Assembly: GCF_964355755.1 (NCBI RefSeq)
Contig: NC_092670.1
Location: 7,031,001 to 7,095,000, forward strand
DNA length: 64,000 bases
Direction: 5' to 3'
Source: Antedon mediterranea
Lineage: Eukaryota; Echinodermata; Crinoidea; Comatulida; Antedonidae
Below, in pieces: positions 1,824 through 63,056 of the stretch; the first letter of the stretch is position 1; each line of letters begins with the position of its first letter. The notes under the pieces were generated by a model, which saw only the letters and a program-made list of their open reading frames with translations, had not been told where the DNA came from and searched no databases. The position numbers and the translations under genes are program-made.

Positions 1824-2075
1824 ATCAAGAAGCTCCAGATATTTTCAATTGCCCAATGGATTTGATTGTTGACACAGTAACTGGTGAGGCATTTGCCATC
1901 AATGTCACATGGGTTGAACCGACAGCTACTGACAACTCTGATGAGACTCCTATACCAGTATCAGACTACACTTCTGGTGATATGTTTGCACTTGGTAACA
2001 CAACAGTCCAGTACAATGTCTCAGATTCAGCTGGTAACTTTAATGATAGCTGTAGTTTTTTCGTCACTGTTAAAG
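1824..2075 (+). CDS. HYR exon E1a
   Basis: 84 codons, phase 1-1, TAG acceptor and GTAAGA donor. Begins DQEAPDIFNCPMD, then the VTWVEPTATDNSDE core, and ends DSCSFFVTVKG. The two Cys of an HYR domain are present. Paralogues at 10516 (E1b) and 37754 (E1c) are near identical. Confidence 0.88.
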
Positions 2076-4812
2076 GTAAGAAAAGAAGAAATTAAACTTT
2101 AGCTTAAGTAATGTGAATATGTCAAATGTGATCTAGTTTTAGGAGAAGGAGGATATACAATAATTTAAATTCAGTAAATTAGCATAAAATGTTGAAAAGG
2201 TAATACAGTGGATCTTCTATTAATGGGACACCCTCGAGACCCCACACATTTTCCTCTCAAAATACATATTAGTACTCATTCTATCTTTTCTGCATTGTTA
2301 TTATAGATTTGGAGACACCATCTTTTAATGGTACATGCCCATCCAGTCCTTTGGAGGTACCAACTGATCCTCCAACCGGCAACAGACTCATTGGGGAAAT
2401 GTTTGCAACTGTGATCTGGACAATTCCATCAGCAACTGATAATGTAGGTGTTGTCATGGTTACAAACAACAGCTACCCTGGATCTCCAGTATATTTCAAT
2501 ATATCTTCTGATTATGACATGAATGTGGCATATGCTGCACAAGATGCAGCAGGCAATGTGGCGATATGTTCATTTTTAGTAAAAGTTGTGGGTAAGAATT
2601 AATTAAAAATAATATATAATCATTACGAAACAAGCCTGTAGAGACCAAACTGTAGTTTTTACTTATTTTCCAGACTTAACGTATATTTTAGCTCAAATTT
2701 ACCGTATTGAGCACTTTCTAGACGGTTACATTTAACCGAACATTTATATAATCATTATATATATTACAATAACTTATATCGTTCGAACAAATATTACCAT
2801 ACCATAAAAACATTAATTTTCTTCGGTGAATGTTAGTATATTTATATATAAAGTAAATGATGGATGAAACTAAGCCAGGACTGTTTAATGCCTAATGTGA
2901 CACCATCTCCATATACACCACTATAATCCCTTCCACGCTCTAACTAGGCCCTACATTGCTTAACTTCAGTGATCTGACGAGAACCGGTGTTTCAACGTGG
3001 TAAAGCCGTATAATTCTCACATTGATCAATAGTAATAATCTAGTCTGTATTAATTGAAATCATATTGATGTAATGCCATTAACATGACCATAACTGTTTG
3101 CAACTCATATCTGTTTATTTCATTATCAATATTATTATATATTATTATATTATTAATATTTTATTTCAGACGAAGAACCTCCTGTCTTCTATACTTGTGA
3201 CAACTCAACTGTTTATATCAACAACACTGCTGGTGAAAACTTTGCACCATACACATGGATGGAGCCAGCTAATGCTGACAACATTTTAGTAGATTCAGAG
3301 AGATCAACACCTAATTTTGCACCAGGTCAAGACTTTACCGTCGGAGAAAATTATATTATTTATATAAACTATGATACATCAGGAAACCAAAACAGTTGTA
3401 ACTTTACACTTGTGGTTGTAGGTATGTTTCTGTTTCAGTTATTCCTTTACTTTACATTAATTAATATTTTAAAGATATATAATTTTTTAAATACCTTGAA
3501 TTAAATAGAGTTTAGTGGGATACGATAAAACAACATAATTGACGCAATTCATAGCGAAAGTACCCCTCTTGATTAATTATAATACAAGCCGAACTAATCC
3601 CTATTGCTTGTAATTAGGACGTCATCAGTTGACCCACTAACGCGTTTTACAATAACCAACCATTTTAATTTCTCAAATTATACTAAGATTCTTGGTGAAT
3701 AATTTTACATTTGCCAGGTTAAAAAACATATTGGCACAGTTAAGTAAAGCTCAGTCACGATGTCCAGTTTTCCAAAAATTATAATTTTCAAAGAATCTTT
3801 GAAATATTACAAAAGAAATTAAACTAATTTAGTCTTGCTTGTATGTTTATTATATTTCAATAAATTATTTTTTTTGTATTTCTGTTTAAAGCATTTAAAA
3901 TTAAGTTTTTAGATTATACTCATCAAACACAGTCCTGCTATAATTAAGGGACGGGATATATTTACTCTTTTCTACTCATTTTGTGTGTAGATATTGAAGA
4001 TCCAGCTATTGCCAATTGTCCAAACAATACTGCAAGCATAACAGATAATGGCAAAAATTACAGTAATATTACCTGGACTCCGGAGCCTACAGCTACAGAT
4101 AATGATGGTGTTGTAAGTTTTGAAAAGACACATAATTCAGGAGATTTATTCTATTTTGGTGTTACAACTGTTAATTATACTGCTGTTGACCATTCCGGAA
4201 ATGTAGCCATATGTTTATTCAATATTACCCTTACAGGTAAGATTTTTTCCTGCATTGAAATAGTCATGTCTTGCTCAAGCATACTGTATTGCAGTGTATT
4301 GCACTGTAATTGTTATGCTTACTGGAAGTAAAGCTTTGTGCTACAGAAAGTAATTCTCTGTTATCTGTAACTAAGCAGTTCTATACTGCATAACCTAATA
4401 TTAAAAACTACTACTATTATTATTATTATCATTTTTAGATCTAGAATCACCTGAGATAATTGATTGTCCAATGGATTCGATTGTTAACACAACAACTGGT
4501 GAGGCATCTGTCTTCAATGTCACATGGATGGTACCGACAGCTACTGATAACTCTGGAGAGACTCCTGTACCAGTAGCAGACTACACGTCTGGTGATAATA
4601 TGTTTGGAATTGGGACCACAGCAGTCCAGTACAATGTCTCAGATTCAGCTGGTAACTTTAATGATAGCTGCACTTTTGTTATCCATGTTGAAGGTAAGAG
4701 TGTACCTTATATGACAAAATTAGATGTTATTTATTTATTTTTCATTTATTCAGGTATAAACACATTTACATTCCATAATGCAGCAACAGCTAAATCGGTT
4801 GGATTACAATAA
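1824..4812 (+). CDS. Gene 1 (3' part): HYR-repeat protein, five HYR exons and stop
   Basis: Exons: 1824-2075, 2307-2591, 3170-3421, 3991-4236, 4439-4693 and a putative terminal exon 4754-4812 with stop TAA. The 5' part lies outside the window or is not recognisable. HYR domains (about 80 aa, Ig-like beta sandwich, two cysteines) are known from hyalin, polydom/SVEP1 and other extracellular proteins, where they act in adhesion and matrix assembly; that role is inferred here. Many N-x-S/T sequons fit a secreted protein. A signal-peptide exon for the next gene follows about 490 bp after the stop. Alternative: all units belong to one larger gene and the terminal exon is skipped. Confidence 0.5.
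2307..2591 (+). CDS. HYR exon E2a
   Basis: 95 codons, phase 1-1. Begins DLETPSFNGTCPSSP, has VIWTIPSATDNVGV and ends AICSFLVKVVG. It is longer than a usual HYR because of a Pro-rich insert (VPTDPPTGNRLIGEM) between the first Cys and the Trp. Copies at 10999 and 38237 are nearly identical. Confidence 0.87.
2592..3169. other. Intron between E2a and E3a
   Basis: AT-rich intron with a polypyrimidine-poor, ATT-rich 3' end (about 3120-3169) before TTTCAG. A segment of about 90 bp (about 2610-2750) present here and in copy 3 is missing from copy 2. No coding signal is seen. Confidence 0.6.
3170..3421 (+). CDS. HYR exon E3a
   Basis: 84 codons, phase 1-1. Begins DEEPPVFYTCDNST, has TWMEPANADN and ends NSCNFTLVVVG. 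The usual Pro after the first Cys is Asp, and the SG-x-x-F turn is replaced by PGQDF. Copies at 11705 and 39102. Confidence 0.85.
3422..3990. other. Intron between E3a and E4a
   Basis: AT-rich intron conserved in copies 2 and 3, with small indels around 3570-3610 and in a T-run near 3868. No coding potential is seen. Confidence 0.6.
3991..4236 (+). CDS. HYR exon E4a
   Basis: 82 codons, phase 1-1, GTGTAG acceptor and GTAAGA donor. Begins DIEDPAIANCPNN, has ITWTPEPTATDNDGV and ends AICLFNITLTG. His replaces Pro in the D-[HP]-SGN motif compared with the other copies (12504, 39942). Confidence 0.88.
4439..4693 (+). CDS. HYR exon E5a
   Basis: 85 codons, phase 1-1. Begins DLESPEIIDCPMDS, has VTWMVPTATDNSGE and ends DSCTFVIHVEG. 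The donor GTAAGAG is followed 60 bp later by a strong acceptor and a stop-bearing exon. The copy at 12952 lacks two codons after MDS; the copy at 42874 is truncated. Confidence 0.88.
4754..4812 (+). CDS. Putative terminal exon of gene 1
   Basis: A pyrimidine-rich TTATTTTTCATTTATTCAG acceptor at 4753 precedes an open phase-1 frame encoding GINTFTFHNAATAKSVGLQ and TAA (4810-4812). The intron 4694-4753 is exactly 60 nt with no in-frame stop, so splicing and retention reach the same stop. AATAAA overlaps the stop (4808-4813). Copies at 13261-13319 and 32733-32791. A skipped cryptic exon is the alternative. Confidence 0.5.
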
Positions 4813-5296
4813 AAAAAAACAAGGCATAAAACAAAACAAATTATAAGATTCGTGCTAAGTACGGGATTGTTGATTTTCTATACCTCTCAATACGGCATCA
4901 AATTGGTGGTTCAAAATGAATCCTACATTATTCAAAGGTGTTTTGAAAGGCTACGATTCAAAATAAATACGTCACAATGTATTGCAAACTATAATGCATT
5001 ATTCTTTGTACATACAACTGTCTACGTTCGTCTACAAAACAACAATATAAAACAATTTGAGCATATTAATCCTTTGAACCTCATGGTACCTATTTAAACA
5101 TTTCAGATCAAGATAAACGTATATAAAGCACTATTTCTACATTTTATTTATTAGTTCCTCGTACATACAACTTTGTATACATTCAACATACACACACACA
5201 CACACATCAAAACTATGTTGAAGATATTGTTTTGAGTAAAACAATTTTAGTTTTTATTGTATCAGACGATTAGTTTACCTACATCTACATTTACAG
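4813..5296. other. Spacer between gene 1 stop and signal-peptide exon
   Basis: About 480 bp holding a (CA)8 microsatellite (5191-5206). It should contain the 3' UTR of gene 1 and, if the model is right, the promoter or 5' UTR exon of gene 2. It ends in a pyrimidine-rich acceptor (ACATCTACATTTACAG) directly before the signal-peptide exon. Nearly identical in copy 2 (13320-13801). Confidence 0.4.
4962..4967 (+). terminator. Candidate polyadenylation signal AATAAA
   Basis: Canonical hexamer about 150 nt after the gene 1 stop. It is kept in copy 2 (13469-13474). In an AT-rich genome the hexamer alone is weak evidence. Confidence 0.3.
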
Positions 5297-5358
5297 GAAA
5301 ATGTTACTAATATTTCTGATTTTGATACTTGGAATTTCTAATCTTGTTAATTCACAAA
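5297..5358 (+). CDS. Signal-peptide exon (gene 2 start)
   Basis: ATG at 5301 encodes MLLIFLILILGISNLVNSQ, a short hydrophobic core followed by polar residues, as in a cleaved secretory signal. The exon ends phase 1 at AAA|GTGAGT. The ATG is only 4 nt after a good AG acceptor, implying an upstream 5' UTR exon. If used internally, the 62-nt exon would shift the frame, so it should act only as a first coding exon. Copy at 13806 with V16F. Confidence 0.7.
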
Positions 5359-8300
5359 GTGAGTATTTTCTTCCTAGTTAGACTTTAATCAATATCTTGA
5401 TCTGGTCGTGAGCATTTCTATGTTTGTAGTCATGTTCCAGAACACTTTATAATGTTTTGTAAACAAACATTTGTAATGCACACAGCTGTTTCAACTATTG
5501 TTAAGATATCAGAAAAAGTCAAGCGCCCTCAGTGTTAGCAGACGAGGCTCCCCCGAGTCGCGCGGACATATAATTTTTGTTTACAAACCATTATTTCGCG
5601 AACGCCAAATTAAATTTCGCTATCGTGAGTTATTATGTAGTAAAAACATTTTATACAAAACTAAACGATTAAAAAAAGTGTATGTTCAATTAAAAAATAA
5701 ATATTTTATTGTTTCTTTACTATAAATTAATAAATAAACGACGATATTGTCCATTTTACTGAAATACTCTCCCGCACATAAACCAGGAAGTTGAGATAAA
5801 CTGTGTAATGAAATAGTAAACAATCGTAAGTAGAAAATATCATTGTATTCTTTACTTTTTTTTTGGATATAATTCATTTTTTTAGAAAAAGAACGAACTA
5901 GAATATAGTCCATCATTATTATATAAACAAAATAATACTAGTTTTGTTAATATAGCCTGGTTCAGTTTTTAGTAAAACTCGCATATTTTGCAACCCTTTT
6001 ATACATTAGAGAGCTTTCGCTATCTCGATCGGGAACGAGAACCAGCATTAATTACCGGTTCTCGATCTCGTACTCGTTTTAAGAACAAATGTAGTTTCGT
6101 ATCCAGTTTCGTAACTAAAGTATCCAACTAAATCAAAGAATTCAACAGAAAAAATTATTTTTAAACTGATATGGAAAACAACATTTATACCTACTTTTTT
6201 AAATGTATCGCTTGAGAAAAAAACTGGCGTTGGGTGTACAATTTTCAATTACATTACCTCTTAAAATCCACGTGATAAAACGACGACAACATGTTTTTCA
6301 CCTTCATCCAGGGTTGTTCTAATGAATATTCATTATTTTTCTGACTTTCGTGGTCTTTATTTGTTTTTATTGGCTATTAAAAAACAGTCGTTTTATGCTT
6401 GATTGCTTCCGGGTTTCCTCATGTGGTTTGTATACAATATGTTTTCAGAATCGCTACTCCATAAAACGCTATGAAACGTTGGGGGCGCTGCACTTAATTC
6501 ATATTTCTGGAACAGCTGTGTGCAAGCCAATGAACAAAAGTAGTTAGTTTTCATGGCGGTCACCTATGTTAAGTCAAACAAACCTTTATTTTTAGTGAGT
6601 CAAAATGTCAAAATTTAATAACATGTAACCGTTCTACACGTAACACGAAAGAAATACAGCATCGACTTAGTGTTTGGAGTTGATGGCTGCAGACAGATAA
6701 TATAGAGAGTTCAAATGAAATAGTTGGCTTATATATACTATCATTCCTATTAACGTTGGAATAAAAATAAAATAATAAACTTAGTTTTTCAAAAACTGGT
6801 AGTGGTCGAGCCTGATCTTCCCTTTTTGGTATAGTAACTCAGTTTGAAGTTAGGCACTTTATTGATTTCCTCGACTGGCTTTGGATTTTAACACACAGAT
6901 TAAAAAACTTGGGGAATCTTCAACCTGAATTTAATAGATTTGAAGTTAAGTTCTATCTAAATCTGAAATATCTGAATTTGTTAAGCAAGGAATAAGTTTA
7001 AATACAATTTATTTCGGAACGTACAAGGAGGACCTGCCAGCACTTAATAGGTTGAGAGTTAAGTAAAGTCATGTCAAATAAATTTATTTTCATATAAAAA
7101 CATTTACATTGAAATGAATTGAATGGTTTCGGCTAACAACAAATAAATAGGACTTAAACTACATTATTTATTGAAATTCTTGATTTTCGTAAAAACTAAA
7201 CCTACTCTGTTTCACACTGTCTCAGATGATTAACAACATTATAAAGTATACTATTTATTGTTTGTCAGGGCCCGCCCGTATAGGAGGAGGTGAGGAGGCG
7301 GAGTTCATTTAAGGGAGGTGCTTATTCGAGGATACTTTAATTTTTTAGTTGTAATAATAGGGTAACATTTATAATCAAATAGAATCCTCTAATAGATATG
7401 AAATTGGTAAATAGAATAACAAATGCTTGGTATATTGTAAATAACAGTCCGATGAATTCTATAGTATAATTGTGTTATAAATATAATACAATATTGTGTT
7501 TTTGTTGTGTGTATAAATGTGGATGGGCGGTTCTAAGTGATATTTTATTGGAGATGTATGCTGTTTATTCAAATAAATACCATCCTAATTGGTATAGTTA
7601 AAACATTATTTAGTTAGTTAGAAACTAACTTCCGTGGCACAGTGAGCCGTTTCGTTTCGGCCTAAGAAAGAAGACGTTAAAAGGCTTATAATGCGGGGAG
7701 GGGCGTACGCGCGAAAGAGGGGTGGGTTTGGGAGGGGACTGGGTTTGGGAGTGGGTGTCCCACCCCCCATCGTGTCCCCCTCCCGAGCCTCAGTTTCCAT
7801 TACATGTAATAACAATGTCACATAATGTACGGTAAATTTAAATAAATCCTTCCTAAATACTCTAATACGGATCTTTTTCGACGAACTAATAATAAACTTT
7901 GATCGAAAAACACTTCATTTGGTATTGCGGCACTCCGAAAATGCCTTGATAGTGCATGTGTTTAGTGTACGACTGTGCTTTGGTGGTCTGTTTAACCTCA
8001 GATATATACCCTATAGCCGGGTAAATAACTCAATGTAATTTAGTATACAATGATTGCCGTAATCGCCGTGTCTATAACACAAATCAATAAAATGCCAAAT
8101 ACGCCACATGCGTTTTTTCGGCCGTGTACATAGAACAAGACATTTCATGTTTATGTTATGCCTATGAAATAATGATAAAAAAAGAACATCATGTTTCTCG
8201 TATTTTTTATAGTTTATACTGCATACCATTATATAAAAAACCTTCATACGCGAGAAAAAAGTTCACGATATTACACTCTACTCCGTACAGGGGTGTAAAT

Positions 8301-11300
8301 ATACAGGTCCGCGCTAACGCTTGCACACGGACCAGGGCGGAAAATGGTGTATATTTGGAGAGTGATGACGTCAGCATTCACACGAGGAGCGAGCTAAGAC
8401 AACGTGATGCTGGTAGTGGGACTCGAGCATGCATGTGTTTTGAAAATAACTCAGTTGTGGGTATTTTCCGAAGATTTTAAATCGCGTTTTTTTTTTAACT
8501 CTTGAATTCATAAATAGTAATTAAACTCTTACCTCTTTCACTATGTAGGCCTATTTACAGAACTATAGCTCTAGCCTATTCTTCTTAATTAAAATAGTCA
8601 AGTGCGTCGAATCCGCGTCTAGTTCCCAATCGAACCCCCACCCAAACCAATTTAATCGACAACGTGAACCCGGAAATGACTTCTACCACGTACGATTGAA
8701 AATTTACCGATGAAATCAGAAATGTTGTTTTAAAACATTTTATAATATCTTCATAAGATAGAAATATGCAACAATATCGTAATAGTGAGAACTAATGTTA
8801 TCAAATCATTTTAACTTTCAATTGAGAGTAGATAATTATATTTGATATACTAGGCCAATGTATTAAATACAATTGTGTATTATGATTACAACTACAGAAA
8901 ATTCATTTTCCTGTGTAAGAGCCATGTTTTTTTTATTGAAACGTGTGCACTTGAATTCTTGTATATACTGTAATTCTGTTCTGTTTATTCGCAGCATAAT
9001 ATAACAAATGGTAACAGAATAACAAATTGTATTGTGTTTTTTTGTACATAATGCAAACTAAAAAAAGTTAAAGTCACTCAAGCCATTCTTTAAAAGTCAT
9101 TCCGTTTAACAATTTGTTGACATGTGTTCACAAATCTCCTTATATCAAGATCAATTCAATTGAAATACGAATAATCAGTACTTAAGCATAGTTACATGTA
9201 CTTTTCATAGATATCGAGGCTCCATTTTTTATGGTAACTTTACCGTTGGTTGATTTCGACATATTATTCTTAGCCATTTCTATACGCTTCACATCAGTGC
9301 AGACAAGTAACACTCATGGGGTGATCCAACTTTCTTCAGATATTTTTACTACAGATAATGTATCAGATACTTAAAACCCGTTGTTCGCTTAAATGTAGAA
9401 ATACACTAATCTAAGAAGTAATATAAAGTAGTAGTTTCTGAATCAGGATCGAGGGTTGCATCGTATTGGAGGCACAGACAATTGCACGAGGATAATAATC
9501 TAACTTATCAGCCTGCACATTCTAGACGTTACAAAATGTAACTGATATAAAATAGGTGTTACTATAGTTTAATAATATATTCATAGAATAGAATAATTTA
9601 TACTCATATTCCATAATAACTGAGACAAGAATGAACATTGTTGATTACAACTACAGAAAATTCATTTTCCTGTGTAAGAGCCATGTTTTTTTTTTATTGA
9701 AACGTGTGCACTTGAATTCTTGTATATACTGTAATTCTGATTCATAATTTGTCTTTTATATTCATTTCTTTTATTCGCAGCATAATATAACAAATGGTAA
9801 CAGAATAACAAATTGTATTGTGTTTTTTTGTACATAATGCAAACTAAAAAAAGTTAAAGTCACTCAAGCCATTCTTTAAAAGTCATTCCGTTTAACAATT
9901 TGTTGACATGTGTTCACAAATCTCCTTATATCAAGATCAATTCAATTGAAATACGAATAATCAGTACTTAAGCATAGTTACATGTACTTTTCATAGATAT
10001 TGAGGCTCCATTTTTTATGGTAACTTTACCGTTGGTTGATTTCGACATATTATTCTTAGCCATTTCTATACGCTTCACATCAGTGCAGACAAGTAACACT
10101 CATGGGGTGATCCAACTTTCTTCAGATATTTTTACTACAGATAATGTATCAGATACTTAAAACCCGTTGTTCGCTTAAATGTAGAAATACACTAATCTAA
10201 GAAGTAATATAAAGTAGTAGTTTCTGAATCAGGATCGAGGGTTGCATCGTATTGGAGGCACAGACAATTGCACGAGGATAATAATCTAACTTATCAGCCT
10301 GCACATTCTAGACGTTACAAAATGTAACTGATATAAAATAGGTGTTACTATAGTTTAATAATATATTCATAGAATAGAATAATTTATACTCATATTCCAT
10401 AATAACTGAGACAAGAATGAACATTGTTGTCTCAGTTAATAATGAGGGAGGGTTTGAATTGGAATAATCCAATATATCGAAAGACTATCCATATATTATT
10501 ATCAACATTGTTTAGATCAAGAAGCTCCAGATATTTTCAATTGCCCAATGGATTTGATTGTTGACACAGCAACTGGTGAGGCATTTGCCATCAATGTCAC
10601 ATGGGTTGAACCGACAGCTACTGACAACTCTGATGAGACTCCTATACCAGTATCAGACTACACTTCTGGTGATATGTTTGCACTTGGTAACACAACAGTC
10701 CAGTACAATGTCTCAGATTCAGCTGTTAATTTTAATGATAGCTGTAGTTTTTCCGTCACTGTTAAAGGTAAGAAAAGAAGAAATTAAACTTGAGCTTAAG
10801 TAATGTGAATATGTCAAATGTGATCTAGTTTTAGGAGAAGGAGGATATACAATAATTTAAATTCAGTAAATTAGCATAAAATGTTGAAAAGGTAATACAG
10901 TAGATCTTCTATTAATGGGACACCTTCGAGACCCCACACATTTTCCTCTCAAAATGCATATTAGTACTCTTTCTATCTTTTCTGCATTGTTATTATAGAT
11001 TTGGAGACACCATCTTTTAATGGTACATGCCCATCCAGTCCTTTGGAGGTACCAACTGATCCTCCAACCGGCAACAGACTCATTGGGGAAATGTTTGCAA
11101 CTGTGATCTGGACAATTCCATCAGCAACTGATAATGTAGGTGTTGTCATGGTTACAAACAACAGCTACCCTGGATCTCCAGTATATTTCAATATATCTTC
11201 TGATTATGACATGAATGTGGCATATGCTGCACAAGATGCAGCAGGCAATGTGGCGATATGTTCATTTTTTGTAAAAGTTGTGGGTAAGAATTAATTAAAA

Positions 11301-13319: not shown

Positions 13320-13801
13320 AAAAAAACAAGGCATAAAACAAAGCAAATTATAAGATTCGTGCTAAGTACGGGATTGTTGATTTTCTATACCTCTCAATAC
13401 GGCATCAAATTGGTGGTTCAAAATGAATCCTACATTATTCAAAGGTGTTTTGAAAGGCTACGATTCAAAATAAATACGTCACAATGTATTGCAAACTATA
13501 ATGCATTATTCTTTGTACATACAACTGTCTACGTTCGTCTACAAAACACCAATATAAAACCATTTGAGCATATTAATCCTTTGAACCTCCTGGTACCTAT
13601 TTAAACATTTCAGATCAAGATAAACGTATATAAAGCACTATTTCTACATTTTATTTATTAGTTCCTCGTACATACAACTTTGTATACATTCAACATACAC
13701 ACACACACACATCAAAACGATGTTGAAGATATTGCTTTGAATAAAACAATTTTAGTTTTTATTGTATCAGACGATTAGTTTACCTACATCTACATTTACA
13801 G
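13320..13801. other. Spacer between gene 2 stop and second signal-peptide exon
   Basis: Near-identical copy of 4813-5296, including a short CA run. By the tandem-gene model it holds the 3' UTR of gene 2 and the 5' end of gene 3. It ends in the same CTACATTTACAG acceptor. Confidence 0.4.
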
Positions 13802-13863
13802 GAAAATGTTACTAATATTTTTGATTTTGATACTTGGAATTTCTAATCTTTTTAATTCACAAA
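13802..13863 (+). CDS. Signal-peptide exon (gene 3 start)
   Basis: ATG at 13806 encodes MLLIFLILILGISNLFNSQ and ends phase 1 at AAA|GTGAGT. It differs from the first copy by V16F. An acceptor-like AG lies 4 nt before the ATG, so a separate 5' UTR exon is likely. Confidence 0.7.
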
Positions 13864-33628: not shown

Positions 33629-33913
33629 ATAAGATAAGTCCAATGATTGACTGCCCAGCAAATGTCACTTCTAACAATTACATCGGAGAAGGGTATGGAC
33701 TAGTAAATGTCAGCACAGATATAGGAAGTCCAAATGCCACTGTTACCTGGGATCCTCCTGAGACAAGTGACAATAGTGGTGGACTTGTGACTGTAATGTC
33801 CTCATCTTTTGAGTCTGGTGACATGATACCAATTGGTACTAACACAATCACATATATAGCAACTGATCCTTCTGGTAATAGGGACACCTGTGTCTTTGGC
33901 ATCAAGGTTGAAG
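33629..33913 (+). CDS. HYR exon f'
   Basis: 95 codons, phase 1-1. Begins DKISPMIDCPANVTS, shares the GYGLVNVST insert with exon f (16704), has VTWDPPETSDNSGG and ends DTCVFGIKVEG. It keeps the DNSGG core that is degenerate in f. Weak acceptor. Confidence 0.85.
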
Positions 33914-54900: not shown

Positions 54901-57900
54901 CGTCGAGTATTGACGCACACATTTTCGCGGATACTTTTACAATCAATAGAACCTATTAGTGTTTTACATACAAATAATGTTAAAAGATAGCTTCTTCGGC
55001 TCGATAGACGGGGCCAATTGAGTTGTTCTAATCTAACATCATACTCCATATCTCCTCTTCTCTGTTTCAATGCTAGCCATGTGGCTCTACGTTGAACAGA
55101 TTCAATCTTATCAATCAATTTTACTTTCTGGGGAAGCCATGCGGGAGTCGCATATTCGAGTATGGGAATGATAAGAGCTCGGTATAATGCAAATACAGCT
55201 GCTGACGAGGTGCCCCCAGCAATACTCGCAATATAACCAATCATCCTATTTGCCCTTGCCGTAACATTTTGTACATGGATATCCCAAGTCAAAGTATGAT
55301 TAATGGTAACGCCAAGGTGAGAATGAGTAAGGACCGATTGTATTGAGGAATCATTAAGGTAGTAAATTGGACGGTATGCCTTTTTGGATCTGGTGATGTG
55401 TAGAATACAGGTTTTATTTATTTGAATTCAATTGCATTTCATTTAAGTTGCACCATGTGGAGAGCGTATTTAGATCACGTTGAACTAAAAGTTCATCATC
55501 AACACTGTGTATATCCCTATAAATGATCGTATCGTCGGCGAATAGGGCACAAGATGGTAAGGAAGATGCAAGGTCATTGATAAATAAGTTAAATATCGTG
55601 GGTCCCAACACACTACCTTGGGGTATTCCAGATATCACAGAGCGTGAGCTACTGAGAGATTCCTGGAAAATAACCTTCTGAATTCGATTAGATAGAAAAG
55701 ATTGCATCCATTTCCATATTTGGCCTCTAATGTTAAACTGTGTAGCGAGTTTATTTAAGACAATTTGGTGGGGTAATTTATCAAAGGCTTTAGAGTAATA
55801 TAAAACAAGGCCAACAGCCATTAAGTCGCGTGCTACAATGCATAGGGATACCGGACCGACAGAAAAACAGACCGACAGACAGACAGACCGACAGACAGAC
55901 GGACCGACCGACATAGTGAACTATACTGACCGAAATTACTGAACATGTTTAAAAATGTTGAAATGTTTAAAAACATTTATATTTTTTTAATTTACACGTG
56001 CGTAGCCTGTCACTTTTGACGTGCTCGTATAACGTAATTTCGAGTTGAAAAGTAAGTCAAGAAAACAGAAATCGGGCAAAATGAGTGCGCAATAACATTT
56101 AACGCGCAGTGCGTGCGCAAAAATCTGCGCACTCATGGCAATTTTGTAAACGCTTAAAATTGCCTGAAACGTACTCTTATTTCATCGAAAATAAATTTTG
56201 AAAATTTTAAGAGCGCGTACGCATGCGTTACATGCGCTACGCACGTATATGTATTGTCATATGATGATTTATGCCCTGAAATTTATGAGTACCACATTTT
56301 ATTTAATTGTGATTCATGGTTGTTAAGATATGATTACAAACGTGATTTCGTTAAATCGTGCGTAGACCGCGTAATTTTTTATTGCGCACCGTGAAAACAT
56401 AACCACATCGATTCCTGGCAATAAGGAATATTCTGTGAAAAATTGACTTAGCTAGATTAAACTGATATCAAGATAAGGTCATAAAGCGATAAAACGCATA
56501 GTGATACCGGACCGACAGACAGACAGACAGACCGACAGACAGACCGACAGACCGACCGACCGACCGACATAGTGAACTATAGAGTCGCTTCCACGCGACT
56601 AAAAATAACATCAATTCTAGGTGGGCGTGGTTTGTCCAGCGACGATGCCCAATTATGCAGAAGGTTAGTTAGCTGCTTAACACATGAGCGGGATGGGAAA
56701 AACCCATGTTGGACGTCTGTGATAAGGCAATTTGAAGTAACATGTTCAAATATAGCAGACTGAATATATTTCTCAAGTATTTTACAACATATTGGTGTAA
56801 GTAATACTGGTCGATAATTTGAGATAGTTGCTTTGTTTCCAGTTTTGAAAACTGGAGTTACATTGGAAATACACCAGGAAGATGGTATTTTACCTTTCTT
56901 CAAAGTTAATTTAAATATATTATGAAGTGGCGGAGCTAACATATATGATGCCGTTTTAAGAATATACGGGTGTATGGCATCAGGACCAGGGGATTTATTA
57001 ATATCAAGCTTATTTAAACTGGATTGAATATCATTGATATCGAAATCTACCGATGAAAGTTCAGGTGTAGGGAAGGAACAAATAGGAGGGTCTGTCGGAC
57101 AGGGTTTAGATACATTAAAATAAATGCAAAGTGGTTATTAAAGCTATCTGCTATGACGGATGGATTAGAACTAACGAATCCGTTAATTTCAAACGAGGTT
57201 GGGGCCGGTGAACGCTTGCGTTGACGGACAAAACTCCAAAAGGCTTTCCGTGTTTTATCCCCCGTGAACAATCGGTTCACATAATCATAATAAGATTTAT
57301 GGCATAATTGTTTGACATCATTATGGACTCGCTTAAACTCCTCCCATGCAAGTATAGTACCTTGGCGTTTAGCCTTCTTAAACAATGTACGTTTCTTAGC
57401 TATAACTTTCTTTATATCATCAGTAACCCAGGGGTGACGTTTCTTCATCTTCTTAGTACGACGTGGAACACAATCACGTATCACAACATCATATATATCA
57501 AGAAACCCTTCCCATGAATCATCTACATTATTGTCAATGAAGATTCCCCATGGGGTTAGGTAAAAAAGTTGAAGAAGATGACCAACGTCAGTCTTACGAT
57601 AAGCTAAGAAACTATTAATTAATATTGTTTAGAATAAAATTTAGTTTTACAAATGTTAAAGGAAATAGCATGATGATCACTCTCAACTGGATTATCAATA
57701 ATACAGAGCGATGATATTTGATCGGGCCTATTTGTAAAAACCAAATCAATTGTGGTTCCAATTACATGGTTATTTGGGTTAGGCCTAGTGATACCATTAA
57801 CTAATTGGATACAATCAAGTGAATCCATAGCATCATTGAATGATGGAGGGCTACAGTTTGGTTGATCCCAGTTTAAATTGAGATCACCAACAATAAATAA

Positions 57901-60900
57901 GCTATCAAACATTGGTAGCTCAGGTAGAAGTGAAACAAGAAAATCATTGCTAAAACTGTTCCAAAACGCTATAGGCAGGTTTGGTGGACAATAACACATA
58001 ACAGAAGTGGAAACATTATCTTTCTCACGATGAAAAAAGATATATTACATAATTCTTTTTTTTTTGTTAATGTAAACTTGGTCAGGGGGACCCATTTTAT
58101 CCAATTTTTATGACACTGTATTCTAACCATTAATTTTATGATAATACTAAAAACTTGCCATGTTTTAACCTTTTATGAATGTTTTTAAACATTTAAAATA
58201 TTAAAATATTTGTTTGAGTTTAACCATTTTATCAGATTTGTTATTGTTATATTATGTTTATTACATGTAAGTGACAAGTAAGAAAATTTTGCACAAAGTG
58301 CTTGACGAAATAAATACATTGAATTGAATCGAATATATTCTTATTTTATATCTAAATCATTATTATAATTATGATCATTATAATGTCTTCATTTTTATTT
58401 TTTTTCCGATAAAAACTTAGAAAACGAGGCTCCAATTTTTTATACTTGTCCATCAAATATTACTATGGCTACTGATTATAATCAAGCATCAGCAATAGTC
58501 AACTGGAGTGACCCAAGTGTTTCGGACAACAGTGGAGAGCTCTTGATGAGTGTTCAGTCTCATATGTCTGGTGACATGTTTAGAATAGGGCAAACATTAG
58601 TTGTATATAATGCAACTGATCCTTACAACAACATAGCAGTTTGTTCTTTCATTATTTATATTTATGGTAAGTGCTGATTTTGTTTTATGATACATATGTT
58701 GATGTCCTGTAAGATACGATAACAACCACAGAAGAATTCAGCCCTCTTTATTTAGTATACGTATAGTTTGAAAATGACTTGGCGTGACCGAGTTATTTTC
58801 CATAATGTTACCTGTGTTGAAAATCATGATAGTGTGTTAAACATAGAAACACTTTTATTTGTAATGATAGTATCTAAATTTTGGTTTCAAGTTAATTTTG
58901 TTCACTCGAAATGTTTTACATTGCATTTAGTATTTCTTCAATTTACTATTGTTAATTTTCAATAGATGATGATGATCCAAACTTGCAGTGCCCATCTGAT
59001 ATTACAACTAATACAACATATGGCCAACATGACACATACAATGTCACCTGGAGTGATCCGATTGTAAATGACAATTCTGGTGAAGTTATAAAACCAACGT
59101 CCAAGTACATATCTGGAAACAATGCTTTTAACATTGGAAGTACTGTTGTTATATATGATGCAGTTGATAGCTCAGGCAATGCAGCAATGTGCAAATTTAC
59201 AATTACTGTTACTGGTATGTATTCCTCCATTGTTTGTTGTATTTCAATTGAATATAATTTAAAATCAAAGCATTGTATGTACCTTTGCAAAGATGAAACA
59301 AAACATGGGGCGGAAATAAGTTATTCATCAGGAACCAATGTAATTTCCCGGTATTTTTAAAACATACGCCACAGTTTTTAAACCTTAGTTTATTGTAGTT
59401 CTTATAGTAATCCAGTTGTAGGTTAGTATTTAAATATACTTTGATATTTACATTAATTTATTTACATATAAATATTACAGTGCTCTATTTTATTTTAGAT
59501 AAGGAAAATCCAGTTATCAATAACTGTCCAATTGATACGACAGTAAACACTACTACGGGACTACCGACTGCTAATATCTCTTGGATAGAACCAGAAGCAA
59601 TTGACAATTCTGGATATTGGGGTCTCACAGCAGACATAGGACCAGGAAGTGATTTCCCAATTGGCAATATTGTGGTAACATACACTGCTGAGGATCCATA
59701 CGAAAACACTGCTACGTGTTCATTTACTGTCACTGTAGAAGGTATGTTAATACTTATTCTGGCCAAAGTGATTATGAAGTAATCAGTAGCTTTGCTATTA
59801 TATATAATTGTAGATTCTCAAAAGGAAAAGAAACAATCAGGTAAATCTAATCTGGTACATATACTGTACAATGTTTATTTATTTGTTTATAGGCCTATGT
59901 ATTGCGTTTTTAAACCATATTCATGTTCGCCAATATTGTGTTCATGATGATAAAGATTTGTTATATTATTATAATTATAGATAACGAAGCACCGGTGTTT
60001 ACATTCTGTCCTGATAGTCAGTCAGTAAATACTACTAACGGAGAATATATCGGTGTTGCTGCATGGGATACACCAACAGCTAGCGACAATTCGGAAACTT
60101 TACCAATTATCGTTGGCTCACACAACACCACTTTTAAATTCCCAGCTGGGAATACACTGGTTAAATACGCTGCAAATGATCCATACGATAATGTTATGAC
60201 GTGTACTTTTACCATTACAGTTGAAGGTATTCTTTTGAGTAATTTCTCTCGTTGATTCATTTCATCTTCAAGTTATTATCCTCTATTCCATTGTAATTCT
60301 GATTTTTTCCACGTTACTTTCTTATAATTTTTTTTTACTCAGTACACTGTGTACAACACGATATTAAATACACGTGGTTCTGAACTTCTTTTTTTTTCTG
60401 TCATGAGCCATGTGATTAAACATTGAAGCTATTTCATTTTACAATTATGATTATATGTTGTCATCTTTTGTACTGTATACGTTATAAGCCTATGCCCATG
60501 TGGCCGTTTTTTCACATGTATATATTTGTTGTAACCGGGATCTACATTATAAGCTCCCTCTCCGTTTCTTTTTTCTCCATGTTCTTTATATATAAACTAT
60601 ATATATTTTTAAGAATGGAAATAAAAAAAGAATGCATTATTGTAGTGTTTTATTTAATTATAATAATATCTAAAAAAACTTGAAATCACAGATAATGAAG
60701 CACCAATTATTACGTCTTGCCCTGAAAATATTGAGACAACTACTGATACTATAACAGATTCTACCACTGTGACTTGGACACCTATTACTACAGCTACCGA
60801 CAACTCGGGTGTAGCACCAAACATCACTACTTGTATTGAGCAAGGAGCAACATTGGCCATTGGGAATCATACCGTTGATGTAACTGCAACCGACAGTTCT

Positions 60901-62877
60901 GGAAACATCAACGCTACATGTTCTTTTAACATTGAAGTTTTAGGTAAAATGAATTCCTACATAATATACTCATCCTGGTATTAAAACTGCATGTAAATTT
61001 ATTTTAACTTATTAACCATTTAAATTAATTAATTTGGCCTTCAATATCTAATTATTATCTAACTCAACCTAATTAGAGTATACTGGATTTTATTTTGGTA
61101 AAAATCAGTATCGAAATGAAGTAGGCCTATTATACCAGTTTACTGTATTTGCCATTACGTAAATTTATATATTTTTGCAGCTAAAACTATCCAAATAATC
61201 ATCTTAATTTAATTCTTGTAGATGATGTACCTCCTGTACTTACATGTCCAAATGATACACTTGTTATGCTTGGAAATACAAGTTCTACCGTTGTTGTCAA
61301 CTGGACACCAGCTAGTGTTTTTGATAATTCTGGGCTGGCTATAGTGCTTTATTCTTCACCAAAGATGAGTGGTGACAAGTTTAATATTGGCACCTTTGTT
61401 ATTACTTATACTGCCATTGATGCATTTGACAATATAGCTACGTGTACTTTTACAATAACTGTTAGAGGTAAATGAAAAATCAACTTAATTTTTGTATTTT
61501 TATATTTTGCTGTAGGCGATGCAAGTTTCACAACTGGCTGCATAGACAAGTTTTATAATTCAAAGGTTCATGATCAAGTAGCTTGTCATATGATGCCAAA
61601 TTGTAGAATGGTTATAAGGTCTGACCCATATACAATATTTTAAACTGTATTGATTTTTTTTATAGATTTGGAATTACCATATTTTGAAAAATGTCCGGAA
61701 TCGTTTACCGTAGGAACAGATCCTGGATTAGCAACAGCTAATGTGTCATGGGTTGAACCAGTTGCTATTGACAATAATGGTATAAACAGAACAGTGCAGA
61801 ATTATTATCCCAATCAGATGTACAATATTTCAACATACACTGTGATGTATATTGCTTATGATAACTCAAATAACAATGCAACCTGTGAATTTGTCATTTC
61901 AGTGGAAGGTAGGTATAACGCAAGCATTTGAATACGCAATCATTTGAATACCTAAATATATTTTGAGATTGGTGAATTGATTCCTTATTTTTAAACATCT
62001 TTTTGTAATTTGCACTTTATAAATTCAAAAACCATTACCCATTCACACGTACAATACAATATTCAGATGCTAGTTTTGTCATGGTCGGTATTATGTAAAA
62101 TAAACGCCTAGATTGTTTCTGTCGTCTTGAAAATACTCGAAGTTGAAACACTGTCTAGAACCTGGACTATATATAAACGCCATTTAAAAAAACTCATGAC
62201 TCATTGGTGTCGAAGATACATTTGTTTTAAGAGTTGACACAGAAACATGTTTACACGTTTGTATCAAGGTTATGTGTAAATCGAGTATTAATTATAGCCT
62301 ACTTAGTTAATTAAATACCCCCACAAATTAAACACTGCTCTTCTGTTGCCTTATTTAAAAAATTGCTCAAAACTCATTTTTTCGACCACTAACATGCCCA
62401 GCGCCTTTGATTTTGTACCTCGGTCTTTGAATTGACGCTTTATAAATATTGATATAATAATAATAATAATAATAATAATATAATGGCAGGTTTACATCTT
62501 TCATACCTGGCTAACTTCTCTACCAGTACAACCACAGTGTGTTTTAACCTAAAGTATAAAACATGTTGGAGACTTATATAATATCAAAATGAAACATTGT
62601 TTTTTGTTCTTTCCAGATAAAGAACTTCCAAATATTATATGTCCTGATAATATAACAAAAGAAACAGATCCTGGAATAGCCTTGACATTAGTAACTTGGA
62701 ATGTACCTGTACCAACTGATAATGTAGCAATTTTGCCAACCAGTGTAGTGGCTATTCCTCTCGTTTCTCCTCCTGTACATATTTCTATTACTGGTAATGT
62801 GGCATATGAGCAAGCTTACACAGCAGAAGATACTTCAGGGAACATTGCTTCCTGTACATTCTATATCACGGTTGAAG
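33629..62877 (+). CDS. Gene 4: long HYR array (31 intact HYR exons, both ends open)
   Basis: HYR exons run from 33629 to 62877, all phase 1-1. No start exon lies between 32792 and 33629 and no terminal exon is seen before the window end. The array either joins gene 3 through the donor at 32673 or has a start I cannot see. It includes the third E1-E4 block, a broken E5, the duplicated A-B-C-D cassette and 14 further single exons. Expected product: a very long secreted or membrane-anchored adhesion or matrix protein made almost only of HYR domains, like hyalin. The exact number of genes is uncertain. Confidence 0.5.
33914..34577. other. Intron between f' and g
   Basis: AT-rich, no coding signal. 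Two short overlapping frames (34019-34309, opposite strands) look like chance. Confidence 0.5.
34578..34826 (+). CDS. HYR exon g
   Basis: 83 codons, phase 1-1. Begins DNEDPVLVCPPNIT, has VSWTDPIVIDNSGE and ends ATCTFTVTVIG. The glycine of the D-x-SGN turn is Arg (SSRN). Closest in the window to the exon at 58966 (both have KPTSKY and VVIYD/DVIYD strands). Confidence 0.87.
37754..38005 (+). CDS. HYR exon E1c
   Basis: 84 codons, phase 1-1. Begins DQEAPDIFNCPMD and ends DSCSFFVTVKG. Matches E1a except for A versus V in the DTATGE segment. Confidence 0.88.
38237..38521 (+). CDS. HYR exon E2c
   Basis: 95 codons, phase 1-1. Begins DLETPSFNGTCPSSP and ends AICSFLVKVVG. Protein identical to E2a. 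Confidence 0.88.
38522..39101. other. Intron between E2c and E3c
   Basis: Matches 2592-3169, including the segment missing from copy 2, so copy 3 is closer to copy 1 here. No coding exon. Confidence 0.6.
39102..39353 (+). CDS. HYR exon E3c
   Basis: 84 codons, phase 1-1. Begins DEEPPVFYTCDNST and ends NSCNFTLVVVG. A-W-M replaces T-W-M at the core Trp compared with E3a and E3b. Confidence 0.85.
39354..39941. other. Intron between E3c and E4c
   Basis: Aligned with 3422-3990. A small insertion near 39804 extends the T-run before the E4 acceptor. No coding exon. Confidence 0.6.
39942..40187 (+). CDS. HYR exon E4c
   Basis: 82 codons, phase 1-1. Begins DIEDPAIANCPNN and ends AICLFNITLTG. The conserved Pro in WTPEPTATDN is Leu. 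Confidence 0.88.
40340..42826. mobile_element. 2487-bp TTAA-flanked DNA transposon (piggyBac/Kolobok-type)
   Basis: The left end AGATGTATTGTCCCCC and the right end GGGGGACAATACATCT are perfect inverted repeats, flanked by TTAA at 40336-40339 and 42827-42830. The same intron in copy 2 has a single TTAA (12908-12911) and no element: a clean empty site. Subterminal inverted similarity extends inward (GAATAG[AG]CC, GTTATTCACTT). A 114-codon minus frame (41630-41286) has no transposase motif I recognise, so it is probably non-autonomous. Confidence 0.85.
42874..42917 (+). pseudogene. Truncated HYR exon E5c
   Basis: Acceptor and first 44 nt (DLESPEIIDCPMDSI) match E5a, then homology stops. The frame continues through unrelated sequence (TMSTNEISNTYINWEISSSH) to TAG at about 43012-43014. 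The HYR core, second Cys, donor and terminal stop exon are lost. The sequence at the break (ACAATGAGTACCAACGAA) recurs at about 48006. Confidence 0.8.
42918..43261. other. Sequence between broken E5c and exon A
   Basis: Unique apart from the 33-bp match to 48006 and a short TA run near 43038. It ends in the ATTTATACAG acceptor of exon A. Confidence 0.5.
43262..43504 (+). CDS. HYR exon A
   Basis: 81 codons, phase 1-1. Begins DTESPTLDCVSNVTV; Val replaces the usual Pro after the first Cys. Core VSWPIPETTDNSG, end ETCTFNVTVIG. Older than A' and A'': its upstream intron differs. Confidence 0.88.
43600..43848 (+). CDS. HYR exon B
   Basis: 83 codons, phase 1-1, GTGAGT donor. Begins DNEDPVFDCPDNIM and ends ASCFFTVTVEG. 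It has four cysteines instead of two (extra Y-N-C and V-S-C), suggesting a second disulphide. Confidence 0.88.
44152..44409 (+). CDS. HYR exon C
   Basis: 86 codons, phase 1-1. Begins DNENPNITCPSDFN, has IQWDVEYTENTES in place of the P-x-ATDNSG core, and ends DNCTFYVTVRG. Confidence 0.87.
44614..44856 (+). CDS. HYR exon D
   Basis: 81 codons, phase 1-1. Begins DEEDPVISSCSMNI; Ser replaces Pro after the first Cys. Core ATWMTPNASDNSGN, end DICIFNVTVIG. Confidence 0.87.
45016..45258 (+). CDS. HYR exon A'
   Basis: 81 codons, phase 1-1. Begins DAESPTFNCVSNVTV. Exactly 1754 bp after exon A. Shares its upstream intron with A''. Confidence 0.88.
45354..45602 (+). CDS. HYR exon B'
   Basis: 83 codons, phase 1-1. 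Begins DIEDPVFDCPDNIM and has four Cys as in B. Differs from B by very few bases (D-I-E for D-N-E, WNV for WNM). Confidence 0.88.
45906..46163 (+). CDS. HYR exon C'
   Basis: 86 codons, phase 1-1. Protein identical to exon C (DNENPNITCPSDFN ... DNCTFYVTVRG). Confidence 0.88.
46368..46610 (+). CDS. HYR exon D'
   Basis: 81 codons, phase 1-1. Protein identical to exon D. No third D copy exists; exon E (48642) takes that position. Confidence 0.88.
46770..47012 (+). CDS. HYR exon A''
   Basis: 81 codons, phase 1-1. Begins DSESPTFNCVSN and ends QTCMFNVTVIG. Nearly identical to A' up to the last 40 bp, then changed (NNVQTCM for NNGETCT), marking the edge of the recent duplication. Confidence 0.88.
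47100..47351 (+). CDS. HYR exon B''
   Basis: 84 codons, phase 1-1. Begins DNEDPVFYCPSGNIM and ends ESCFFSITIEG, with the four-Cys pattern of B. One extra codon (S-G-N) and a different upstream intron show it is an older copy. Confidence 0.87.
47352..48110. other. Intron holding a LINE 3' tail
   Basis: 47700-47941 looks like a + strand CR1-like LINE 3' end (TTCAGCTAAGGCTGCGATGA, then a TGAAA-type tail and an A-run). At about 48006, ACAATGAGTACCAACGAA matches the break of E5c. Nothing else is recognised. Confidence 0.5.
48111..48368 (+). CDS. HYR exon C''
   Basis: 86 codons, phase 1-1. Begins DNENPSIECPSDFNV, has IQWDVKYTDNTQS and ends YNCTFIVFIRG. Diverged copy of C. Confidence 0.87.
48642..48884 (+). 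CDS. HYR exon E
   Basis: 81 codons, phase 1-1. Begins DTENPMMNCPDGIV, has ANWVEPDITDNSA and ends VNCTFIVTIIG. It occupies the place of a D-type exon after C''. Confidence 0.87.
48885..49292. other. Intron, nothing recognised
   Basis: 408 bp, AT-rich, ending in a TTTCTCCCTCAG acceptor. Confidence 0.6.
49293..49532 (+). CDS. HYR exon F
   Basis: 80 codons, phase 1-1. Begins DVEIPIFDPCPSNIDV, has VNWTISVYDNVGV and ends AECTFNVTVTG. The donor GTAATA is weaker than most. A 2.9-kb repeat-rich intron follows. Confidence 0.86.
49533..52475. other. 2.9-kb repeat-filled intron
   Basis: Holds a GC-rich hairpin (49641-49671, related to 21449-21481), a diverged core of the long-TIR family (about 49895-50240) and an inverted right end of that family (about 51556-52022, finishing AAATTTATATATAG). 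50240-51550 is unique and somewhat CpG-richer, with several AGGCCTA words; no exon is recognised. Confidence 0.55.
51556..52022 (-). mobile_element. Right-end fragment of the long-TIR element
   Basis: Same sequence, same orientation as the end of 25254-27285, including CCGAATTTTGCCCTTACGTA and terminal TATATATAG. Left part lost. Confidence 0.65.
52476..52718 (+). CDS. HYR exon 52476
   Basis: 81 codons, phase 1-1. Begins DTEPPEYIGCPTNMIV, has VTWIEPAATDNAGV and ends TTCMFEVTVQG. The SGN turn is degenerate (TAGLK). GTATTT donor. Confidence 0.87.
52999..53244 (+). CDS. HYR exon 52999
   Basis: 82 codons, phase 1-1. Begins DTEDPVFINCPMSPIEV, has VSWDDPQPMDNSGM and ends GICSFTVIVQG. Acidic turn EDEDGN replaces D-x-SGN. 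Confidence 0.88.
53429..53671 (+). CDS. HYR exon 53429
   Basis: 81 codons, phase 1-1. Begins DNENPEFNCSIGNVLV (Ser instead of Pro after the first Cys), has ADWTFTDATDNVGV and ends DSCSFYVIVIG. Confidence 0.87.
53922..54167 (+). CDS. HYR exon 53922
   Basis: 82 codons, phase 1-1. Begins DKYPPVISDCPDYPVM, has ANWTEPIASDNSGY and ends AICLFSVDIVG. Tyr replaces the usual Glu at position 3. Confidence 0.88.
54168..54656. other. Intron 5' part before the LINE
   Basis: AT-rich with a T/A-rich low-complexity stretch (about 54430-54520). No gene seen. The intron was about 0.9 kb before the LINE insertion. Confidence 0.5.
54657..58025 (-). mobile_element. Defective CR1/Jockey-type LINE, itself interrupted
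   Basis: Minus-strand order: endonuclease C-part (57999-57619; GDLNLNW, TTIDLVFTN, SDHHAI), connector (57484-57047), RT N-part (56942-56600; ISNYRPVLLTPICCKILEKY, QHGFFPSRSC), then an insertion, RT core (55800-55414; YYSKAFDKLPH, GIPQGSVLGP, FADD), and the thumb and C-end (55292-54717). The 3' tail is A-rich (ATAAAATAAAATAAAAATAA on the plus strand, about 54674). It is 5'-truncated within the endonuclease and frameshifted between the pieces, so inactive. Confidence 0.85.
55830..56599. mobile_element. Short TIR element inserted in the LINE reverse transcriptase
   Basis: Outer ends AAGTCGCGTG and CACGCGACT are inverted. Inside, two direct arrays of GACAGACC-type repeats (about 55847-55915 and 56504-56573) each start after GGATACCGGACCGACAG or GTGATACCGGACCGACAG and end CCGACATAGTGAACTATA. 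The core is non-coding. It splits the LINE frame between RIDVIF and YYSKAFD. Superfamily unknown. Confidence 0.6.
58060..58335 (+). mobile_element. LINE 3' tail fragment
   Basis: A non-coding stretch ending GCTTGACGAAATAAATACAT and TTGAATTGAAT, typical of the 3' UTR and microsatellite tail of CR1-like LINEs. No coding part is seen. Lies just before the acceptor of the HYR exon at 58421. Confidence 0.4.
58421..58666 (+). CDS. HYR exon 58421
   Basis: 82 codons, phase 1-1. Begins ENEAPIFYTCPSNIT (Glu for the first Asp), has VNWSDPSVSDNSGE and ends AVCSFIIYIYG. The D-x-SGN turn is DPYNN. Confidence 0.87.
58966..59214 (+). CDS. HYR exon 58966
   Basis: 83 codons, phase 1-1. Begins DDDDPNLQCPSDIT, has VTWSDPIVNDNSGE and ends AMCKFTITVTG. 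Closest paralogue is exon g (34578): shared KPTSKY and DAVDSSGNAA/DSVDSSRNSA. Confidence 0.88.
59499..59741 (+). CDS. HYR exon 59499
   Basis: 81 codons, phase 1-1. Begins DKENPVINNCPIDTTV, has ISWIEPEAIDNSGY and ends ATCSFTVTVEG. Confidence 0.88.
59814..59840 (+). CDS. Candidate 27-nt micro-exon
   Basis: Between HYR exons, ATAATTGTAG is followed by a frame D-SQKEKKQS and then G|GTAAAT, giving 27 nt with phase 1-1. A Lys/Gln-rich linker of nine residues would fit the rule of the array. Short length makes chance possible. Confidence 0.3.
59981..60226 (+). CDS. HYR exon 59981
   Basis: 82 codons, phase 1-1. Begins DNEAPVFTFCPDSQSV, has AAWDTPTASDNSET and ends MTCTFTITVEG. The SG-x-x-F turn is TTFKF. 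Confidence 0.88.
60227..60691. other. Intron, nothing recognised
   Basis: 465 bp, AT-rich, with T-runs. An 86-codon hydrophobic frame (60423-60683) looks like chance. Confidence 0.55.
60692..60943 (+). CDS. HYR exon 60692
   Basis: 84 codons, phase 1-1. Begins DNEAPIITSCPENIET, is Thr-rich (TTDTITDSTTVTWTPITTAT) and ends ATCSFNIEVLG. It has a third, unpaired Cys (TTCIEQG). Confidence 0.87.
61222..61467 (+). CDS. HYR exon 61222
   Basis: 82 codons, phase 1-1. Begins DDVPPVLTCPNDTLV, has VNWTPASVFDNSGL and ends ATCTFTITVRG. The intron before it carries a diverged end of the long-TIR family (about 61040-61170). Confidence 0.88.
61666..61908 (+). CDS. HYR exon 61666
   Basis: 81 codons, phase 1-1. 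Begins DLELPYFEKCPESFTV, has VSWVEPVAIDNNGI and ends ATCEFVISVEG. The D-x-SGN turn is DNSNN. Confidence 0.88.
61909..62616. other. Intron with a LINE 3' fragment and (TAA)n
   Basis: At 62339-62392 the plus strand reads SSVALFKKLLKTHFFDH and a stop, the usual C-terminus of CR1-like ORF2. It is followed by a short 3' UTR and an ATA/TAA microsatellite (about 62452-62480). The rest is unique. Confidence 0.55.
62330..62482 (+). mobile_element. CR1-like LINE 3'-end fragment
   Basis: ALFKKLLKTHFFDH followed by a stop and a TAA-repeat tail: very short 5'-truncated copy. Confidence 0.5.
62617..62877 (+). CDS. HYR exon 62617
   Basis: 87 codons, phase 1-1. Begins DKELPNIICPDNIT, has VTWNVPVPTDNVAI and ends ASCTFYITVEG. 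It has a longer middle loop (VVAIPLVSPPVHISITGN) and lacks the SG-x-x-F turn. Last HYR exon in the window; donor GTATTG. Confidence 0.87.
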
Positions 62878-63056
62878 GTATTGTAACGAAAATCCATTCT
62901 CGGGTTCGTTCCCTTTTGGGGGGAAGGGTCTGCGGTACCACGGCACACTCGAATGAAACAAACAAATCAATTACAATTTTTGGAGTGACCTTTATTCTTC
63001 TCTGATTCCAAATTATTGGTAACAACCGATTATAATAATTAATTAGATTAGTTCTG
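62878..63056. other. Intron start after the last HYR exon
   Basis: Short unique stretch with a GGGTTCGTTCCCTTTTGGGG segment before the minisatellite. No exon seen. Confidence 0.5.

Follow-up and report, generated by a model that had tools for sequence, protein, structure and literature searches.

An array of HYR exons in Antedon mediterranea that probably codes for the bulk of the stalk of a giant adhesion-class GPCR

We analysed a window of 64,000 nucleotides (C1:7031001-7095000) within a 354-Mb genome, in which an initial annotation had described 43 single-exon HYR domains. An HYR profile was built from 29 clear window exons and run on all six frames of the window. The search returned 44 matches, all on the + strand: 43 full-length exons, spanning positions 1824-62877, and one cut-off match at 42874. 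No HYR matches to this profile were listed for the - strand. The exons were typed by grouping 192 HYR exons (190 full-length, two partial) from four neighbouring genes at 68% identity, and the types are denoted by letters in the features below.

1824..4693, + strand: HYR exons 1-5, types A-B-C-D-A, first ABCDA cassette (exon borders 1824-2075, 2307-2591, 3170-3421, 3991-4236, 4439-4693)
10516..13200, + strand: HYR exons 6-10, ABCDA cassette in the second copy of an 8.7-kb tandem repeat, aligned pieces 95-99% identical to the first copy
16704..16982, + strand: HYR exon 11, type E
29231..29563, + strand: CUB exon, phase 1-1, between HYR exons 11 and 12 (Pfam CUB, 44.9 bits)
32421..34826, + strand: HYR exons 12-14, types A-E-F
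37754..40187, + strand: HYR exons 15-18, types A-B-C-D, third cassette copy
42874..43010, + strand: truncated type-A-like HYR remnant, 35 amino acids matched
43262..48368, + strand: HYR exons 19-29, two H-I-J-K cassettes followed by one H-I-J, in a tandem repeat of 1754 bp
48642..53244, + strand: HYR exons 30-33, types L, M, N and O (exon borders 48642-48884, 49293-49532, 52476-52718, 52999-53244)
53429..62877, + strand: HYR exons 34-43, types P-Y, the first ten of 15 predicted membrane-proximal domains
1824..64000, + strand: the window's share of the candidate receptor gene, which ends near window coordinate 90446 (C1:7121446)

All 43 full-length exons have an AG acceptor and a phase-1 G|GT donor, and the length of each is a multiple of three (240-285 nt; 10,860 nt in total), so that the phase 1-1 borders and the size range first described hold for 43/43 exons. 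Joined, they give a stop-free frame of 3620 amino acids, with GAT as the junction codon in 38 cases, GAC in four and GAA in one. Pfam PF02494 matches 43 stretches of this product above its curated cut-off (1732 bits in all), one for each of the 43 exons; the array stands up to the Pfam check that the initial annotation had proposed, and the count of 43 domains is returned by both the profile search and Pfam. Two other families matched the product, both under their cut-offs. The splice points had been placed after the first base of a D codon and after the G of a closing glycine. The first placement stands, but the glycine is absent from the spliced protein, because its G and the first base of the D codon are the same phase-1 junction base; it appears only when the donor G|GT is read through. 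The truncated match at 42874..43010 has an acceptor and reaches an in-frame stop before any phase-1 donor, so its inclusion would end translation and any functional mRNA would need to leave it out.

Inspection of the 903 exon pairs revealed a median identity of 36%, with 17 pairs at 95% or above and 695 below 40%, which bears out the description of the array as a mixture of near-identical and deeply diverged copies. A tree of the 43 domains recovered the repeat groups but left 17 of its 36 inner branches open, with the bootstrap not settled. The domains contain 144 N-X-S/T motifs. Searched against solved structures, a profile of 24 window HYR exons matched only SraP (4m03, E 2e-6).

The non-coding DNA around these exons carries repeats of several kinds. 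Just 3' of the last HYR exon of the window lies a minisatellite (63074-63672) whose - strand reads GGYAIVGGYV and whose self-matches are 78-86% identical; a similar stretch recurs downstream at window coordinate 80.6-81.0 kb. Intronic retroelement fragments on the - strand (17728-18423, 32109-32438 and 56580-57134) are endonuclease- or reverse-transcriptase-like, slightly under the Pfam cut-offs. An open frame at 31204-31656 (- strand) looks like a GIY-YIG endonuclease such as Penelope-like elements carry, and has no Pfam match. The stretches 19075-27287 and 51554-52024 contain dispersed repeats in both inverted and direct orientation, many of them 90-95% identical, which probably belong to a transposon family within long introns. 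Past the window, C1:7108093-7111343 looks on visual inspection like a retrotransposon, with frames for a PHD-like finger, an endonuclease and a reverse transcriptase; the GDISSNPGP at its start resembles a 2A peptide.

The array continues beyond 62877, the limit of the range first described. In the 30 kb examined downstream of the window there are five further HYR exons (Z, a, b, c and d), within the next 5 kb (window coordinates 65651-67845), and after 67845 these 30 kb contain no more; no HYR exon was found in the 30 kb upstream. On the + strand the domain order continues from HYR (48 full exons) through EGF, Ig, SEA and a GAIN-like region to GPS and 7TM, while CUB, MAM and LDLa exons lie upstream of the window. 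Above Pfam cut-offs, the downstream exons comprise EGF (35 bits), Ig (32), GPS (57) and two 7tm_2 exons (34 and 42), and the upstream exons comprise CUB (68), MAM (113) and LDLa (27). SEA scored 29.7 bits against a cut-off of 26.4 in the segment 5' of the 7TM exons. The joined exon translations, in which some junctions are approximate, contain a complete 7tm_2 domain (profile positions 4-250 of 250, 142.4 bits). The GPS exon (PF01825, 57.4 bits) reads CHCDHLTNFAILM (...ICHCDHLTNFAILM), with its HLT motif intact; we take HL|T to be the cleavage site.

Compared with solved structures, GPS plus 7TM is most similar to ADGRG2 (7xke, E 7e-53) and ADGRG6 (21du, E 5e-52), and residues 180-465 of the 465-residue query from the SEA-to-GPS region align with the ADGRG6 ectodomain (6v55, E 1e-15). 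The Pfam GAIN model gave no match at E up to 0.1 on the segments tested. Like the HYR exons, the two CUB exons and those for LDLa, EGF and Ig have lengths divisible by three and phase 1-1, and the MAM pieces read as phase 1. Phases match across the HYR-to-Ig exons, and the junctions from the SEA region to 7TM are of mixed phase, some of them approximate. Since the checked modules from CUB to Ig are of phase 1-1, modules or groups of modules can be duplicated or lost with the frame kept. We infer from phase, strand and order that the exons named here, from CUB through 7TM, are joined in one transcript. On this evidence, the 43 exons probably make up the bulk of the extracellular stalk in a giant adhesion-class GPCR (a probability of roughly 0.87), which among solved structures appears closest to ADGRG2/ADGRG6. 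The original label of an HYR gene most likely does not fit as such, since the array would form the extracellular part of an adhesion receptor with a 7TM domain.

The array might instead encode a secreted, hyalin-like matrix protein of HYR domains alone. Hyalin-type proteins are HYR arrays, and HYR clusters with no GPS nearby among the matches listed do exist in this genome, for example at C10:11.873-11.892 Mb and C4:29.466-29.490 Mb, as well as at C1:14.30-14.44 Mb; these clusters possibly encode secreted HYR proteins. In the gene studied here, EGF, Ig, SEA, GPS and 7TM exons follow the array on the same strand, the phases match from HYR to Ig, and the domain order recurs in the next gene. We consider a secreted product highly improbable, and a hyalin-only protein is rejected by the GPS and 7TM exons 3' on the same strand, provided that the exons are joined.

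A search with the GPS exon singled out 14 loci: 12 share 91-100% identity with it and two share 83%. Eight of the 14 stand in tandem on C1 (+ strand, 6.597-7.295 Mb). Thirteen of the 14 loci (8/8 in the tandem set, 5/6 of the others) have an HYR exon on the same strand no more than 30 kb upstream; the locus at C2:32844882 has none upstream among the matches listed. A 7tm_2 match follows the GPS at at least six of the eight tandem loci, among the matches listed. At another of the eight (C1:7187k) 7TM-like frames were seen, and at tandem locus 6660125 we looked at the GPS and upstream HYR only. Elsewhere, at C7:2285059-2320983 (- strand), GPS copies of another family form a tandem run of eleven; ten have equal scores, and the spacing is about 3-6 kb. 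All genome-wide matches listed in our searches fall on the large contigs C1-C11. Nuclear-receptor zinc fingers, counted by exon, gave 49 matches, more than in sponges, which suggests a bilaterian. COX1 gave no match, and with it no mitochondrial contig; a GFP search gave none for GFP and none for its control.

A splice audit covered the 190 full HYR exons of this gene and three sisters, leaving out 13 extra exons of the longest sister and five at C1:6975247-6977962. AG acceptors were present in 190/190 and G|GT donors in 186/190. The four non-GT donors belong to the last HYR exon (type d) of each gene and all read G|GCAAGT (e.g. C1:7098609), a GC-AG type donor with unchanged phase that is kept in all four genes. 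None of the 190 exons contains an in-frame stop. Two type-A exons with a stop occur elsewhere, at C2:32830111 and C8:18690868, among the matches listed genome-wide.

The order of types revealed how these genes differ, each exon set presumably representing one gene. The 48 full exons of the gene in our window read ABCDA ABCDA E AEF ABCD (remnant) HIJK HIJK HIJ LM NO PQRSTUVWXYZabcd. The sister at 6.54-6.59 Mb consists of AEF five times, A, NO, then KHIJ/LM/NO repeats and then P...d. The first stretch analysed of this sister contains 85 exons (84 full) and its left edge falls inside the array; the 40 kb farther left hold 13 more HYR exons (11 full), bringing the array to about 98, with a weak 14th match left out as doubtful. 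LDL-receptor-b (YWTD) repeats stand among its first HYR exons (C1:6528805-6532679, 66 bits). The sister at 6.743-6.782 Mb has at least 44 HYR exons, the left edge of the stretch again lying inside the array, and the next gene (7.127-7.182 Mb) has 14, in the order EAeAEFAEFEFAcd. Three of the genes carry each of the 15 proximal types (P-d) once and in one shared order; the fourth gene has c and d only. Length differences among those three genes are distal and arise mostly by exon groups.

The same units are visible in a self-comparison of the window. Three copies of the 8.7-kb ABCDA unit lie at about 915-9643, 8849-16132 and 34899-40339, and their aligned pieces are 95-99% identical, except two at 91.6 and 92.8%. 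The first two copies of the 1754-bp HIJK unit are 96.5% identical. The proposal that the array is still growing is supported, in the sense of recent expansion. As for how it grows, the duplication of symmetric exons had been suggested; the modules are indeed symmetric (1-1), but what expands is mostly a cassette of several exons.

We estimated Ka/Ks for the 14 proximal exons P-c of this gene against two sisters; type d was excluded because its donor is not GT. Divergence from one sister was Ks 0.052 and Ka 0.020, and from the other Ks 0.049 and Ka 0.020, whilst the two sisters differ from each other by Ks 0.010. The resulting ratios of 0.39-0.41 (Fisher p 2e-5 and 6e-5) represent a significant shortage of amino-acid change, which indicates that the frames of P-c are in use. 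Single-exon ratios against the first sister range from 0 to 1.17, one exon having no silent change, and say little, since few changes underlie each of them. Between the first two ABCDA copies there are 3 silent and 10 replacement changes (Ka/Ks 0.96, p 1.0); these youngest copies are indistinguishable from neutral and too young for judgement. We reject a pseudogene array on the basis of the 190/190 full exons that are open with AG acceptors and of the purifying selection on the 14 proximal exons.

Such close copies raise the question of whether the assembly itself produced part of these repeats, by leaving haplotypes unresolved or by mis-joining tandem copies. Some blocks reach 99% identity in DNA or 97.6-100% in protein, and two sisters are only Ks 0.01 apart, as such an artefact might produce. 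Nevertheless, the copies have differences of their own and also differ in exon order and number, and the proximal types of this gene are separated from those of the sisters by a Ks of about 0.05. We judge an artefact improbable.

The position of the CUB exon within the array bears on whether the window holds one gene or more, since this exon may be either an internal module or the start of a second gene. If it is a start, the receptor would begin near CUB at 29.2 kb, and HYR exons 1-11, perhaps with the third ABCD, would belong to another or decayed copy. CUB is often N-terminal, and a gap of 15.4 kb separates HYR exons 11 and 12. Another ABCDA block lies farther upstream, beyond the CUB-MAM-LDLa exons, at C1:6975247-6977962 (97.6-100% amino-acid identity to types A-D here), and close copies of the type E exon (exon 11; its copy lies at C1:7127466, 5' of the next gene) and of the window CUB exon occur between the end of this gene and the next HYR array. 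These features would suit a division into two genes. Set against it, no + strand GPS was found on C1 between 6921302 (a sister) and 7116643 (this gene), among the matches listed, and the distal exons retain open frames and splice sites. Furthermore, in the sister at 6.53-6.60 Mb the A/E/F types are followed by the middle and proximal types seen here, and in the sister at 7.16-7.19 Mb they go straight to c-d, EGF, Ig and GPS. More than one gene in the window is thus possible but, in our assessment, unlikely. Three observations bear on the 5' end of the gene: in the 14.5 kb leading to the upstream CUB exon a crude scan found no signal peptide, the 30 kb upstream of the window are HYR-free, and a further ABCDA block stands farther upstream. 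The same crude scan of the next gene's region gave two unconvincing frames.

If the array is part of a single adhesion receptor, a mode of action can be proposed from its domains. The receptor would be cut at the GPS, and the long glycosylated arm would remain attached and extend far from the cell, where it could bind a ligand on another cell, the matrix or a microbe. Force plays a role in adhesion GPCR activation, and pulling or binding may expose the tethered agonist. Ligand-driven exposure of the tethered agonist has been described for the adhesion GPCR class (PMC12716839). A change in cassette number would alter the reach and tip composition of the arm and leave the signalling part untouched. 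A more speculative reading, to which we give little weight, is a fast-evolving recognition system, in which tandem receptors share a common signalling end and a fixed 15-domain proximal stalk, and the gain and loss of phase-1 HYR cassettes, with gain by duplication, remodel the distal arms for self/non-self, gamete or microbe recognition. Were this so, individuals or cell types would display receptors that differ in reach and tip, and the repertoire would perhaps be widened by skipping of symmetric exons.

The locus thus likely encodes a GPCR whose arm consists of dozens of copies of one module, with a several-fold spread of exon number among sisters. The series of about 98, 48 and 14 exons, together with the sister of at least 44, would offer a natural test of whether arm length and composition tune an adhesion GPCR. 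It also illustrates that exon-phase symmetry acts on groups of exons: here it is mostly the cassette, rather than the single exon, that duplicates.

Several known systems share parts of this architecture. Sea urchin hyalin is a secreted matrix protein with tandem HYR domains; in contrast to hyalin and other secreted HYR arrays, GPS and 7TM exons come after the array here. ADGRV1 (VLGR1) is a giant among adhesion GPCRs, and its ectodomain repeats a single module, Calx-beta, dozens of times. Calx-beta gave no Pfam match in the 3620-residue HYR product or in the other segments tested, and the 7TM match to ADGRV1 (9fte) is weak, at 57 bits versus 183 for ADGRG2. Amphioxus adhesion GPCRs carry LDLa, Ig and CUB, modules that a survey of them did not find in mammalian ones (PMC2246102); in contrast to this receptor, the amphioxus survey has 0 occurrences of HYR or hyalin in the portion of its text available. 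Of the papers searched that name HYR domains or hyalin repeats, one is by its title and abstract on GPCRs, those of choanoflagellates (PMC12716839), and HYR domains in adhesion GPCRs may already be known. In the literature searched we found no report joining HYR domains with GPS and a transmembrane region, nor HYR arrays of this size with cassette-wise variation among tandem sisters.

The closest likeness is to ADGRG2 and ADGRG6, the best solved matches for GPS plus 7TM, with ADGRG6 (6v55) also matching the GAIN-GPS region. The upstream CUB matches the CUB of 6v55 (E 9e-9), although cubilin matches better (E 7e-32), among many CUB proteins. SEA precedes GAIN in ADGRG6, and here it precedes the GAIN-like region. 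Relative to ADGRG6 and ADGRG2, which it resembles by best hit, the receptor would add 48 HYR domains together with MAM, LDLa, EGF and Ig.
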